From contig NZ_CP016474.1 in assembly GCF_001693255.1 (NCBI RefSeq), forward strand, positions 948,661 to 1,012,660: a stretch of 64,000 nucleotides of DNA. The letters run 5' to 3'. The notes beneath the pieces were generated by a model. It was not told the DNA's origin. It did not search any database and saw only the letters and a list, made by a program, of their open reading frames with translations. This DNA is from Picosynechococcus sp. PCC 7003 (GTDB lineage Bacteria > Cyanobacteriota > Cyanobacteriia > Cyanobacteriales > MRBY01). Both the position numbers and the translations under genes were made by a program. Each line of letters starts with the position of its first letter. The stretch's first letter is position 1. This document shows positions 4,551 to 25,214 of this stretch, one piece after another.

Positions 4551-5591
4551 ATGAGCATTGTTTTAGCAATCGAAACAAGTTGTGATGAAACTGCCGTTGC
4601 AATTGTTAATAATCGTAAAGTTCTTGGCAATGTGGTTGCTTCGCAAATCGATATTCATCGGGAATTTGGCGGCGTTGTGCCGGAGGTGGCATCACGGCAC
4701 CATTTAGAAAGTATCAATGCTTGTATTGACACGGCCTTTGAGCAGTCGGGGTTGGACTGGTCTGAAATTGAGGCGATCGCCACCACCTGTGCACCGGGAT
4801 TGGTGGGGGCTTTGTTGGTGGGGGCCGCCGCCGGAAAAACCCTGGCCATGGTGCACCAAAAGCCTTTTATCGGCGTACATCACCTAGAGGGGCACATTTA
4901 CGCCAGCTATCTCAGCCAACCGGAGCTAGAACCGCCCTTTCTCTGCCTCTTAGTTTCTGGGGGCCACACAAGTTTTATTGAAGTGCGCGGTTGCGGGGAG
5001 TATGAACTGCTGGGGGAAACCCGCGATGATGCGGCCGGAGAAGCCTTTGATAAGGTGGCGCGGCTGTTGAAAGTGGGTTATCCAGGCGGCCCGGTGATCG
5101 ATCGCCTGGCCAAGGAAGGTGATCCCCAAGCTTTTAAGTTGCCAGAGGGGAGAATTTCTTTGCCAGGCGGCGGCTATCATCCCTATGACTGTAGTTTTAG
5201 TGGTCTAAAAACGGCAGTTTTGCGCTTAGTGCAGCAGTTTGAAACGGAGGGAAAAGATGTTCCGGTAGAAGATATTGCGGCCAGCTTTCAGTACACTGTT
5301 GCCCAGGCTTTAACGAAACGAGCGGTGCGCTGTGCAGGCGATCGCCAATTACAAACGATTGTGGTCGGCGGTGGCGTGGCAGCAAACAGCGGTTTACGGC
5401 AGATTTTGACGGCAGCAGCGGCGGAAGCCGGAATTCGGGTTTATTTCCCGCCCCTCAAGTTCTGTACGGATAATGCAGCAATGATCGCCTGTGCGGCGGC
5501 GGAACATTTCCAAAGGAGCGATCGCTCTCCGTTAGATTTACCTGTGGCCTCCCGTTTACCGATTACCCAAGTGCAAACTCTATACAGCTAA
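4551..5591 (+). CDS. tsaD: tRNA N6-threonylcarbamoyladenosine synthase subunit TsaD
   Basis: A 346-aa ASKHA-fold protein. It starts with the nucleotide-binding phosphate-1 loop LAIETSCDETAVAIV. The metal ligands are in HHLEGH (His111 and His115), followed by LLVSGGHTSFIEV and the late VVGGGVAANSGLR and FCTDNAAMIACAAAE motifs. With TsaB and TsaE it transfers the threonylcarbamoyl group from TC-AMP to A37 of tRNAs that read ANN codons. Neither partner is in the window. No strong Shine-Dalgarno site is visible before the ATG. It is divergent from psaF across 155 bp. Confidence 0.98.
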   Translation: MSIVLAIETSCDETAVAIVNNRKVLGNVVASQIDIHREFGGVVPEVASRHHLESINACIDTAFEQSGLDWSEIEAIATTCAPGLVGALLVGAAAGKTLAMVHQKPFIGVHHLEGHIYASYLSQPELEPPFLCLLVSGGHTSFIEVRGCGEYELLGETRDDAAGEAFDKVARLLKVGYPGGPVIDRLAKEGDPQAFKLPEGRISLPGGGYHPYDCSFSGLKTAVLRLVQQFETEGKDVPVEDIAASFQYTVAQALTKRAVRCAGDRQLQTIVVGGGVAANSGLRQILTAAAAEAGIRVYFPPLKFCTDNAAMIACAAAEHFQRSDRSPLDLPVASRLPITQVQTLYS

Positions 5592-20493: not shown

Positions 20494-23400
20494 TTACTCG
20501 GAAGAAGACTGGGTAGTGGGGAGAGATTGACGGTAATGGTAGGCAACCTTCAGGGCCTGGAGAAGCTTTTTCACCTGAATCGGTTTACTCAGGTAATCAT
20601 CCATCCCCGCCTCTAGACAGAGTTGGCGATCGCCTTGCATCGCATTAGCAGTCATGGCAATAATCCAGGGAGGCTTCCCCTGGGACTGCGGCGACCGGGC
20701 ATAACGCTGGCGGATCTGTCTGGTCGCTTCGAGGCCATCCATAGAAGGCATTTGCACATCCATCAAAATGACATCATAATTATCGCTTTGTAAACGGCTC
20801 AGGACTTCGAGGCCATTGGTCGCCACCTCTACACCATAGCCGAGGCGAGCCAAAACATTGAGAGCAACTTTTTGGTTCACAAGATTATCTTCTGCCAACA
20901 AAATTTTGAGGGGGTAGGCTTGCCCCAAGGTTTCATCAAAGGGAGAGGAAAGCTCCATGGCCGTAGTGGGTTGGGCTTCGGCAAGGGCCAAAGACAAGCA
21001 ATGGTAGAGGGCTTCTTGCTTGATGGGCTGATGTAATTGTAACTGCTGGGAGATGGCTGGATAATTAGTCGATCCGGAAGTATTGAGGGGAGGGGCGATC
21101 GCCACAAGCGCCAGGTCAGGATTTTGACTCGATTGTTTAACTTGCCGGAAAAAATCTGCGGAAACAAGATCCGTTTCCATCTCCATCATCAAAAGATCAA
21201 TGGGACGTTGATTCAAGATATCCAAAGCAGTGGCGGCCATGGTGGTATGGGAGACTACTGCCCCAGTTACCGTCAATAAATGGGAAATTCCTTGGGCAAA
21301 GAGAGGACTGGGGTGCAGGATTAGTAGGTTTTTCTCCTGGAGTTGGGGCGGGCGTTCATGGGGGGTGATCTCCTTCGGAGAAACCGGTGCCACTGTAAAG
21401 GGAATTTGCGCATAAAAGACCGTTTGTCGCGCCACAGATTGGAAAATTTTTGGCGGCTCGGGAGACATCTCTTGGGGAAATTGACCCGCTGTGATCCCCC
21501 CACTTTCGACCCAAAGTTTGCCTCCCATCAACTCCACCAGTCGTTTGCTAATCACGAGGCCCAAACCTGTGCCACCATAGCGGCGTGAGGTGGAAGCATC
21601 CCCCTGGCTAAAGGGTTGAAACAACCGGGTCATCTGCTGTGCCGGAATGCCGATGCCTGTATCTAGGATCGCAAATCGCAGACACACTTGATCTGTTTCA
21701 TCTGTTTCGGTACTGTCTGAAGGTACCCGTTGTACCCAGAGGGAAACATCACCGCGATTGGTAAATTTGACGGCATTGCCCAAGAGATTGACCATAATTT
21801 GTTGGAAGCGTTGCATATCCCCTATCAAGCAGTGGGGCACATCGGGATCAAGGATATAGCTCAGATAAATGGGCTTGGCGATCGCCCGAGTAGACATCAA
21901 ATCCAAACAGTTTTCCAAACAGGTTTGCAGGTTAAAAGGCTGCAACTCTAGCTCAAATTTTCCTGATTCAATTTTCGAAAAATCCAGAATATCGTTAATG
22001 ATCGCGAGGAGATTACTGCCACTATTACGAATAATGCCGATAAATTCCTGTTGTTGGGCGGTGAGGTCTGTATCTCTGAGGATTTCCGCCATTCCAATCA
22101 CCGCATTCATCGGCGTCCGGATCTCGTGGCTCATGGTGGCCAGAAACTCGCTTTTAGCACGGTTAGCTTGTTCTGCATCTTCCTTGGCGATCTTAAGTTG
22201 GGTTTCGGCCTCTACTTTATCTGTAATGTCAGTGATAGTACCGACGATGCGGTAGGGGTTGCCTTGGTCGTCTTTGAGGCACTTTGCCTTACTTAAAATC
22301 CACCGGTATTGGCCATCATGATGGCGCAGACGATGGACGTTTTGATAACTTTCGCTCAGTCCCTGGAGATGGTTTGTCATGGCGACCTGGGCTTGGGCGA
22401 GATCATCGGGATGAACGAGATCGGCCCACATCCGACGATCCGTAATCTGAGGCCGTAAATCGGATTCTTCGTAGCCCAAGAGACGAAACCAAGACCGGGA
22501 TCGATAAACTTGATCCGAGCGCAGATCCCAATCCCAAATACCGTCATTGGTAGCGGCGATCGCCAATTCATAGCGTTGCTCACTTTGCCGTAACTGTTGC
22601 TCAATGAACTGCCGTTGCTGGATCTCCTCAGAAAGGGCTTTCGTTCTGGCCTGCACCTGTTCTTCAAGATTGAGAGTGGTTGCCTGGATCGATTGGAACT
22701 GCTGCCGGAGGGTTTTTAGCATTTCCCCGAAATTGTAGTTGAGGCGGTCGAATTCGCGGATTTGGCTCTTTAGGGGACGGGTTGGGGTTCGATTTTGCAA
22801 CTGCTGTTGAATATCCGTGGTCATCGAGCTGAGTTGATTCAGGGGAGCTGTCAACCAACGACTAATTTTTTCGGCAGTCACCACCGCTAGCAGTAACAGC
22901 ACTAACACAATGGTCAGGCTACGGATGTAATAAAGTTCCAATGTGTCAATGCTTGGGGCCAAAGCCAGGGTCAAAGATAACTTGGCCGGCAGTAGCGTCT
23001 CCACTAAGGGCTGCTCAATAAAACCAAAAGCCTGTTGCCACCGGGACATGGCCGATAGACTAAGGGCCCGCGGCGGTAGGGAAACTGTCGTACGCACCGA
23101 CAGGGGTTGATTGTCTCGCTGGTCATACCAAGTCCATAACTGTCCTGGTTTTTCCTCTCCTGCTGAGTCTGCAATCACCACATTATCATCCGTTGTTAAG
23201 GCGATCGCCCGGAGGGGATATTGCTTAACGGCCTGTAACTTACGGCGGAGCAAATTGCCCATAAACTCCCCCTCCACATCGATATAAAATATCCCCCTGT
23301 CCCCAGGTATCCGCAACAGGTAGTCAATATGAAGCCCGCCTTCTTCCCCGTTCACCCTTGCGACCATGCCTTTCTCTAAAAACTGGGAATTTTGCCTATA

Positions 23401-24174
23401 TTCACGTACATGGGCATTGATTTCGGTTTTTTTCTCTAGATTGCTTGTCCCAGAGCGATTATCCGAAGCTAAAACTAAATTATCTGTCCCATCCAACACC
23501 GCTATATAGTTTAATTCTGGGTAGATCGCTTGGAGGCCCCGAATGGCATTTTTGGCCCTAGTCAAATTTTCTGGATCATTGGCAATGACATCGACGACGT
23601 ACTGACTAGCGCGGAGATAATCACCTTCCCATAATCTCAATTCTTCCGCGAGGGAGGCACTAGAAGAGACCAAAACACTATTCACCTCCTGTTCGATGGT
23701 ACGGAAACGCTCCTGCCCATTCAAGACCATTAAAGTGAGAATCGGAAACACAATAAAAGCCAACAAAACATTAAAAATAATGGTCTGTAGAGATTGACGT
23801 CGTTGGCGATGATGTTGAAAAAATCTCTGGGCAAACGGTAGATAATTAATGATTAAACTAGCAATCTCTGCATTAAAAATACCGTTAACGGCTTGCTTTA
23901 GAGCGACGGTTGTGACCCCCTGAAGATTCATCCCAAGAAAGAGAGAATAAAACAAAAAGACCAGAGGTATACCGATAAATAGCCAATAGAGGGCATTGTA
24001 AAAGGTGATGTTGATATCGTGGCGTTGCCGCTGCCAAAAAAAGCTAACGAACAGCACCTCTCCTACAAAAATGGCGATCGCATAAACATGGTGCCACAGA
24101 AAGAACGTATGTAAGCTGGCGATCGCCCCCGCGACAATTGCGAAAAAAGGGCCATAAAAAAAAGAATTAGCCAA
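20494..24174 (-). CDS. Hybrid sensor histidine kinase (main reading frame)
   Basis: A 1226-codon frame from a TTG at 24174. Order: membrane helices (about 1-145), an extracytoplasmic sensor region (about 150-400, dCache-like, with [16 protein letters not shown]), a helix near 415, a HAMP-like linker, a PAS/PAC domain ([27 protein letters not shown]), HisKA with the phospho-His near 682 in [19 protein letters not shown], HATPase ([33 protein letters not shown]), a degenerate receiver, and a good receiver with Asp near 1139 ([15 protein letters not shown]). The N-terminal start is doubtful: the expected first membrane helices are encoded just upstream in another frame. An HPt gene follows. Confidence 0.9.
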
Positions 24175-24344
24175 ACCGCAATGGAGCCAAATAAAAAATC
24201 GATTCCAAAAAATAAATTCAGTTTAAAGTAATTACCCAAGTACCCCGCAATCGTCAGGGCCAGCAGTAAAAGCAACGCTTCCCTAGGCAAATCACGGAAC
24301 TTTACCAGTAGACGATTGAAGGTTTCTTTGGACAGAGCAGGCAT
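24063..24344 (-). CDS. Displaced N-terminal membrane fragment of the hybrid kinase (frameshifted)
   Basis: From an ATG at 24344 this frame encodes [20 protein letters not shown], then two hydrophobic helices ([33 protein letters not shown]). It then runs into unlike sequence ([14 protein letters not shown]). A -1 shift in the T8 run at 24159-24166 would join LILFF to [14 protein letters not shown] in the main kinase frame, giving one continuous membrane domain of about 1280 residues in total. So it is the true N-terminus of the kinase, separated by a one-base indel, a sequencing error or a slippage site. It is not an independent gene. Confidence 0.8.
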
Positions 24345-24419
24345 TACACCACAAATTTGATTTAGAACTTTATATCTTTATACTCCTAAGGATACCTGCC
24401 GCTGCATATCAATTGAACA

Positions 24420-24690
24420 ATTTGACATCCTCACCGACCTCAAGGAACGGTGATTCCTAAGACTCACGACTTAGGTTTCTGCTTCTTCCCGTCGCTGGGG
24501 TTTTGCAACAGCCTCTACCCTCAATGAGTTTTTATTGTCTTACTGTTCGCTCCACAGACTTTCGGCTTAAGCCTTCCCGCAAGCCCTGCGGTATTCAAAA
24601 GTTAAATTTGGTCGCTGAAAACTTGATTATCGCTCTCAACTTATTTTATTTTACAGCCTATAAAGCCGTCCTAGAAGGACGGGGTTTCTC
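24420..24690 (-). mobile_element. IS200/IS605-type remnant without tnpB (MITE-like)
   Basis: About 270 bp with both ends of the TnpB-carrying IS200/IS605 elements common in cyanobacteria but no transposase frame. One side has the hairpin CCGTCCT-AGA-AGGACGG (24666-24682) followed by GGGTTTCTC. The other has two stem-loops, TCACCG...CGGTGA (24431-24453) and CCTAAG...CTTAGG (24456-24475), followed by a stretch typical of these elements (TTTCTGCTTCTTCCCGTCGC; CTACCCTCAATGAG; GACTTTCGGCTTAAGCC). In intact elements the tnpB 3' end also specifies an omega RNA. The element lies between the kinase and the SH3 gene. Confidence 0.7.
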
Positions 24691-24713
24691 GCTGATTTTC
24701 TGAAGAAAACTGA

Positions 24714-25214
24714 TTAATTGACTTTCTGAAGGTTGCCAGCCTTAACCCAGGCCTCTGTGCCATTTTCAAGGCGAATCTGTTGCCAAGTACCGTCTGCACT
24801 CATCCCCAACACCGTCACCTCAGAATTGTAATCAACCCCCCCTAGGCGAGCGGAATCCTGGGATGGTTCGGCCCGTAAACTCAAACCACTCGACCAAGTC
24901 ACCGTCGCTTTATAGCCATCTGCCGATGTTTCATCAGCAACTTCTGGTTCTGGAGCTTCTTCTGCTTCGGCCTCAGTCGTCTCTGGAAGATCATTGGCAG
25001 CCACGGCAGTGGGTTCAGGTTCAGTTTCTTGGGATTGCGGTGATGTCGGGGCGGTTTCTGGGGGATCAGCTACAGTCTCAGAAAATACTGGTTTCGGTGG
25101 GGCCGCGGCCATGCGATTAAAGAAATAGTAAGCGGCTCCGACACTGCCCACCGCCAACAGAAATACCCCAAGGATAAAACCAAGAATAAATTGAAAAAGA
25201 TTGGAAATATTCAT
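24714..25214 (-). CDS. Membrane-anchored SH3-domain protein
   Basis: A 166-aa protein. Residues about 8-33 form a membrane anchor (FILGFILGVFLLAVGSVGAAYY). Then comes a ~65-residue acidic Pro/Glu/Ala/Thr-rich linker (QSQETEPEPTAVAAND). The C-terminal ~65 residues are a bacterial SH3 domain: LSLRAEPSQDSARLGGV, then VTVLGMSADGTWQQIRLENG and EAWVKAGNLQ. Such domains usually bind cell-wall peptides or other proteins on the outer face of the membrane. Function is otherwise unknown. The gene stands alone between the IS remnant and ycf46. Confidence 0.85.
   Translation of the reverse strand: MNISNLFQFILGFILGVFLLAVGSVGAAYYFFNRMAAAPPKPVFSETVADPPETAPTSPQSQETEPEPTAVAANDLPETTEAEAEEAPEPEVADETSADGYKATVTWSSGLSLRAEPSQDSARLGGVDYNSEVTVLGMSADGTWQQIRLENGTEAWVKAGNLQKVN

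Follow-up and report, generated by a model that had tools for sequence, protein, structure and literature searches.

Comparative analysis of cyanobacterial genomes revealed a class of IS200/IS605 elements in which the ends and an omega-RNA scaffold are present, tnpB is missing and, in intact members, a conserved module takes the place of tnpB. Members insert 3' of TCAT, and relatives have spread recently. One of them is an element of 281 bp on the minus strand at positions 24422-24702 of the window (the whole stretch of 64,000 nucleotides analysed), which was confirmed as a real non-autonomous IS200/IS605 element. Our preferred reading, with a probability of roughly 0.6, is that elements of this class have kept ends and omega-RNA, are moved by TnpA and borrow TnpB in trans, and that the window copy, itself short, is probably a decaying member. 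The module-bearing class carries more weight than the window copy alone.

The window element and its copies in the host genome

The sequence-only reading had taken positions 24420-24690 for an IS200/IS605 relic without tnpA or tnpB. This identification was borne out and only the edges had to be redrawn, to 24422 at the right end and 24702 at the left end. The ends match the left and right ends of TnpB loci of one cyanobacterial family, and the reverse strand of 24422-24560 resembles the tnpB 3' end and right end of TnpB elements on Nostocales plasmids. No TnpA or TnpB frame was found inside the element, either in the list of open reading frames or by tblastn with the family TnpB, which matched the last 30 residues only. 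The parts of the element and its borders are listed below.

24703..24706, minus strand: four left-flank nucleotides, TCTT, where the family target would be TCAT, the sequence found at the empty site in two relatives (G002 and G004)
24422..24702, minus strand: whole TnpB-less element, left end at the high coordinate and right end at the low one, with edges placed by reference to TnpB loci and empty sites
24666..24684, minus strand: left-end hairpin CCCCGTCC-TTCTA-GGACGG, identical in the left ends of several TnpB loci of the family
24648..24653, minus strand: weak candidate for a -10 box (TAAAAT), possibly of the old tnpB promoter, from position and sequence
24614..24640, minus strand: 9-bp hairpin predicted by single-strand folding of the window sequence, at the place where other elements carry the 131-nt module
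24422..24591, minus strand: predicted omega-RNA scaffold of the cognate TnpB family, from a match to covariance model R1 (model positions 1-155)
24467..24559, minus strand: tnpB remnant of the last 30 or so codons, overlapping the omega-RNA (tblastn, 52% identity to residues 366-395 of the TnpB at locus L014, E 0.024)
24431..24453, minus strand: right-end hairpin TCACCG...CGGTGA, preceded by GAAT and with TCAA at the edge, from sequence and family alignment; we take it to be comparable to the ends of IS608
24402..24421, minus strand: flank adjoining the right-end edge, which would serve as the guide if the omega-RNA were made, by analogy with the rule given in the available text of PMC8612924

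Both neighbouring genes lie on the minus strand: an SH3-like gene (24714-25214), whose stop is to the left of the element, and a kinase gene to the right, which starts at 24344 and is separated from the right-end edge by 77 nt. A frameshift had also been read in the kinase gene (window 20494-24344). It is real relative to G002, lies in a T run and could be a true mutation or a sequencing error; it is inside the gene and away from the element, and no link between the two was found.

The host genome (G000; 3.35 Mb in three contigs, with the window on C1) was searched with window positions 24380-24720 as the query. Further copies with the same ends, for which the sequence-only reading had suggested a search, were found. 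A second copy occurs on another replicon (G000:C3:160659-160951; 89% identity over 293 bp), and its version of the hairpin at 24614..24640 deviates in the loop only. A third, more distant copy at C1:643000-643381 was matched in two pieces; it is a TnpB-less element of 376 nt with a 131-nt module between the left end and the omega-RNA. Three further short left-end matches were found with the same query.

It had also suggested checking whether the flanks in sister strains lack the insert, and they do. In G002 and G004, AATCAT at the syntenic position is followed directly by the homologue of the window right flank, and homology restarts exactly at the right-end edge. On the other side, the window has TCTT against TCAT in both relatives, and about 100 nt of intergenic DNA leftward is without alignment, so that only one side of the window element's empty site is exact. 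The empty site in G002 that corresponds to the copy at C1:643000 is exact on both sides (...CCCTTTCAT, 376 nt, CCTAGGAG... in the host against ...CCCTTTCATCCTAGGAG... in G002), and G004 reads ...TTCCATCCTAGGGG... at this site. Insertion 3' of TCAT without target duplication is thus exact for C1:643000, and TCAT also precedes five copies in another genome (G136).

Omega-RNA scaffold and TnpB partners

A scan with an alignment of five TnpB proteins yielded a family sample of at least 80 TnpB loci, all titled cyanobacteria. In many of them the left end reads TCAT followed, across the edge, by CAGAAAA..GGGT..AAACCCCGTCC, and the right ends finish with GATGTCAA, both as in the window. Model R1 was built from 45 TnpB-linked right-end omega-RNAs, with TnpB-less copies, including the window copy, excluded. 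Its consensus contains 26 pairs, 15 of which show changes on both sides among the 45 sequences, where the region is also coding. The main R1 match was present in 78 of the 80 TnpB loci with 87.8-173.2 bits (45 of these are in the model).

R1 matched the window element over its full length (24422-24591, 104.3 bits, E 2e-27). The sequence-only reading had supposed that the retained right-end stem-loops could still be transcribed as a guide-like RNA; judged by this match, the right end contains a complete omega-RNA scaffold of the cognate family. The window score is lower than most of the TnpB-linked ones, and that of the C3 copy is lower still (73.9 bits), while the copy at C1:643000 reaches 125.5 bits. 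The window omega-RNA has two non-standard cells in the consensus pairing.

Analysis of the host genome revealed 18 places with PF07282, two of which are halves of one broken gene. For the Y1 transposase, one full gene (C3:217601) and one fragment were found. The many PF07282 places beside a single full Y1 gene suggest that one TnpA may serve many elements. A search for an intact tnpB with a matching right end had been suggested as well; such genes exist in cyanobacteria, one of them in the same genus (G004, with a cognate TnpB 69% identical to that of L014), but no matching right end was found among the host-genome TnpB loci inspected. Nor was a cognate TnpB found in the host genome, in which the best match to the family protein has an E value of 4.5e-83 against values below 1e-115 for the cognate group.

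The PF07282 places of the host genome are of several types, six of them of one type at 455 codons. Two more TnpB-less elements, of 180 nt each and 95% identical, also occur there (L011 2087-2266 and L012 1631-1810; G000:C1 near 2898602 and 232146). TGAC precedes both, their flanks differ, and their ends are like those found at L010, where tnpB is frameshifted. With R1 the two reach 25.5 and 23.1 bits, and a different type of omega-RNA seems to be retained in them.

The module in place of tnpB

The sequence-only reading did not foresee the conserved 131-nt module that related elements carry; the window copy is without it. A scan with R1 gave matches in 54 of 120 genomes of the host's order (Cyanobacteriales). 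A total of 90 loci, 60 of them hand-picked from the listed R1 matches and 30 others, some overlapping, were used for inspection, and the share of TnpB-less copies is not readable from such a set. Among the 90, 15 had fewer than 60 TnpB residues, and three of these were at contig ends. The remaining 12 loci, with enough upstream DNA, contain no TnpB beyond the omega-RNA overlap and hold 13 omega-RNAs. A conserved stretch starting GGTCAnTGACCCACCC replaces tnpB in 11 of these 13 omega-RNA contexts and in the copy at C1:643000.

Among 12 copies of the module, 11 of the 29 pairs of the structure were changed on both sides, compared with 4.4 in shuffles, and none of 500 shuffles reached 11. Controls in which the structure was slid along the same copies gave 0 to 3 pairs. 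A second set of 30 copies (29 distinct rows), in an alignment that was fitted to the model and includes places used for it, gave 9 of 29 pairs against 5.0 in shuffles, with 0 of 500 reaching 9. Further pair types did not exceed the shuffles in the first set (164/500) or in the second (301/500). The central hairpin varies in sequence; of its 24 distinct versions 23 fold, and the other one folds weakly. Non-standard cells outside helix 5 are G-U in 14 cases and A-C in none, the figures being 23 and 10 when the poorly aligned helix 5 is included. Invariant columns make up 62 of the 153 in the alignment of the 12 copies. Overall, our analysis indicates that the module is a structured RNA in which paired positions are kept through two-sided changes.

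Of 35 distinct sequences upstream of the module, 32 have TAnAAT at -12 to -7, frequently preceded by TG, and an extended -10 promoter-like site is found just upstream of the module at C1:643000. Searches of 15 related loci against 4227 Rfam families at E up to 1 gave no match, as did a search of the whole window at gathering scores and a tRNA and tmRNA search of four loci. No remnant of the module was found in the window or C3 copy by R2, a covariance model of the 131-nt module, at E up to 1.

Fold energy was rejected as proof of structure, since single-sequence energies were not significant and the predicted folds were no more stable than shuffles (z -0.41 for C1:643000 and -1.12 for the window). 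The module was likewise rejected as a coding sequence, with no open frame in 22 of 30 aligned copies and one in the other 8.

With a limit of E 1e-6, R2 matched 71 of 291 sampled genomes of the host's order, the 71 belonging to 40 of 121 genera. With a limit of E 1e-8, matches were obtained in 21 of 388 genomes of the host's class, and 12 of the 21 belong to other orders. The module is linked to the omega-RNA. An R1 omega-RNA lies downstream of it, on the same strand and 37-69 nt on, in all 30 best-scoring loci (86.2-153.2 bits). Comparison of 50 module loci, spanning about 1.5 kb or less per side and one of them ending at a contig end, with five TnpB queries found 41 without TnpB similarity and nine with 20-38 residues in or beside the omega-RNA. 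None of the 80 TnpB-bearing loci had the module below E 0.1, the weak matches being at L111 (17.0 bits, E 0.12) and L063.

At L063 the R2 match (14.6 bits, E 0.45) is followed downstream by an R1 match that is also weak (47.7 bits). A TnpB element lies some 1.3 kb away, and the stretch at 5039-5301 is perhaps a decayed TnpB-less copy.

Genomes with the module tend to encode a cognate TnpB. At a cut-off of E up to 1e-115, which was set after the list was seen, 56 of the 71 module genomes have a cognate TnpB, as do 64 of the 220 genomes without the module (Fisher p 1.5e-13, uncorrected for phylogeny and genome size); the remaining 15 of the 71, the host included, are without one.

Evidence of movement comes from G136, in which five near-identical copies were found among seven matches listed. 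Each is behind TCAT and the flanks differ, which indicates that the family moves. An automatic pattern called the 5' target of 30 module elements as TCAT in 16, TTAT in six and TGAT in one, with no call in seven. A blastn search of phage records with the module and a search of viral contigs with two exact patterns gave no match, and 14 plasmid records matched, in each case within the omega-RNA part of the query and not over the module.

A total of 16 loci with weaker module matches were also compared, of which 11 have an R1 match downstream (42-128 bits) and five have no meaningful match (L280 is cut by a contig end). At L274, L275, L281, L284-L286 and L288 weaker module copies stand before other right-end RNAs, which suggests that the module may be exchanged between scaffold types.

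Proposed mechanism and comparison with known elements

In ISDra2, according to the available text of PMC8612924, the guide RNA (reRNA or omega-RNA) of about 150 nt consists of the tnpB 3' end, the right end and a flank of about 16 nt. According to the same text, the motif beside the DNA target is the insertion target, and TnpB has been proposed to cleave the empty donor joint, whereupon repair brings the element back. The TnpB-less class has the same cis parts, but it has no nuclease gene in cis, its target is TCAT and not TTGAT, and it is known from sequence alone. Because every cis part of the ISDra2 scheme is kept, we infer that TnpA and TnpB are borrowed. TnpA of another element would move the TnpB-less elements in trans. 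A transcript from the element's own -10 site would contain the module, the omega-RNA and about 16-20 nt of flank, and would be taken up by a related TnpB produced elsewhere in the cell. By analogy with ISDra2, the two together would cut the empty site after excision, and repair from a sister copy would retain the element. With no tnpB message at hand, the module probably serves, as a first guess, to make guide RNA or to protect or deliver it. The window copy, which either lost the module or was never provided with one, is probably inactive now; silence is its most likely state, given the missing module, the drifted target and the failure to find a cognate TnpB in the genome.

A further-reaching formulation, which we offer tentatively and rate a little short of even odds, is that these are RNA-only transposons. 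They would have no protein gene, their cargo would be a structured 5' domain plus a TnpB guide scaffold, and they would parasitise TnpA in order to move and TnpB in order to be retained; the 5' domain would swap between scaffold types and do the job of the tnpB message. TnpB is the ancestor of Cas12 nucleases, and the parting of a guide RNA from its nuclease gene is an open step toward CRISPR. The module-bearing class would thus supply natural instances in which guide RNAs work, or fail to work, in trans, as well as a new RNA family, and omega-RNA matches without tnpB would not always be debris.

An internal deletion of a TnpB element could also have left plain relics, with an RNA that has no function in the window or in related elements. 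Relics made of ends only are known (available text of PMC7290912), and the window and C3 copies are without the module, have lowered omega-RNA scores (104.3 and 73.9 bits) and lie in a genome that yielded no cognate TnpB. Across the whole class, however, we regard this explanation as unlikely, since the compensatory changes in the module, the placement of the promoter, the recent spread and the linkage to an omega-RNA in 30 of 30 loci are hard to obtain by chance deletion. Co-option of the window element as a leader regulating the downstream kinase gene would fit its position on the same strand, 77 nt from the kinase start at 24344, and is scarcely credible when the element is missing at the same place in G002 and G004 and the kinase frame is broken in the host genome relative to G002.

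Two alternatives concern the module itself. Movement of IS200/IS605 elements proceeds through single-stranded circles, with ends that act as DNA hairpins (available text of PMC8612924), so that the module could be a single-stranded DNA structure of the transposition intermediate, made for TnpA, and not an RNA. A promoter-like site directly upstream in 32 of 35 sequences and the preference for G-U over A-C on the module strand (14 to 0 when helix 5 is left out, though 23 to 10 when this poorly aligned helix is counted) make this improbable, and 80 TnpB-bearing loci manage without the module. A self-cleaving or self-splicing ribozyme would account for the 62 of 153 columns invariant over 12 copies and for the long fold, and IStrons, in which group I introns are joined to IS605 elements, provide a precedent. 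Such a ribozyme is nevertheless very improbable: the 15 loci searched against Rfam had no match at E up to 1, and both insertions checked at gene level in the host genome are intergenic, where splicing would gain little.

Among known systems, the window copy by itself is, from its sequence, of the same plan as a PATE (palindrome-associated transposable element) of the IS200/IS605 group, which has a left-end fragment with a hairpin, no tnpA, a tnpB tail and a whole right end. A PATE-like sequence of this kind in Halanaerobium hydrogeniformans has 28 nt of left end, the last 58 nt of tnpB and 160 nt of right end. It differs from the class in being one ends-only sequence, for which the available text of PMC7290912, the source for both descriptions, names no guide RNA or added RNA module. 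The unclassified type II MITEs of Anabaena sp. 90 (77-541 bp) are, like the TnpB-less class, small, structured, mobile and cyanobacterial; their authors saw no likeness to IS ends in the available text of PMC3542288, and with a comparison by description only an overlap is possible. Neither the module nor elements reduced to an omega-RNA were found described in the literature searched, the available text of PMC12558985 included, a weak negative as subscription papers were mostly outside the search. As far as these searches show, the module-bearing class is undescribed, though the Anabaena sp. 90 MITEs might overlap with it.

Also close to the class are cyanobacterial tnpB-only elements, such as that encoding WP_011316830 on plasmid C of Trichormus variabilis ATCC 29413. 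They have the same omega-RNA and right end, and many share the left end, but they differ in the presence of a tnpB of about 395 codons and the absence of the module at 80 of 80 loci. We take them to be of the IS1341 type, a name that comes from the annotation of one family member. Two Microcystis phages, MaMV-DL01 and MaMV-DH01 (L048 and L049), carry a family TnpB gene with its omega-RNA (167.8 bits), annotated as a hypothetical protein or a transposase.
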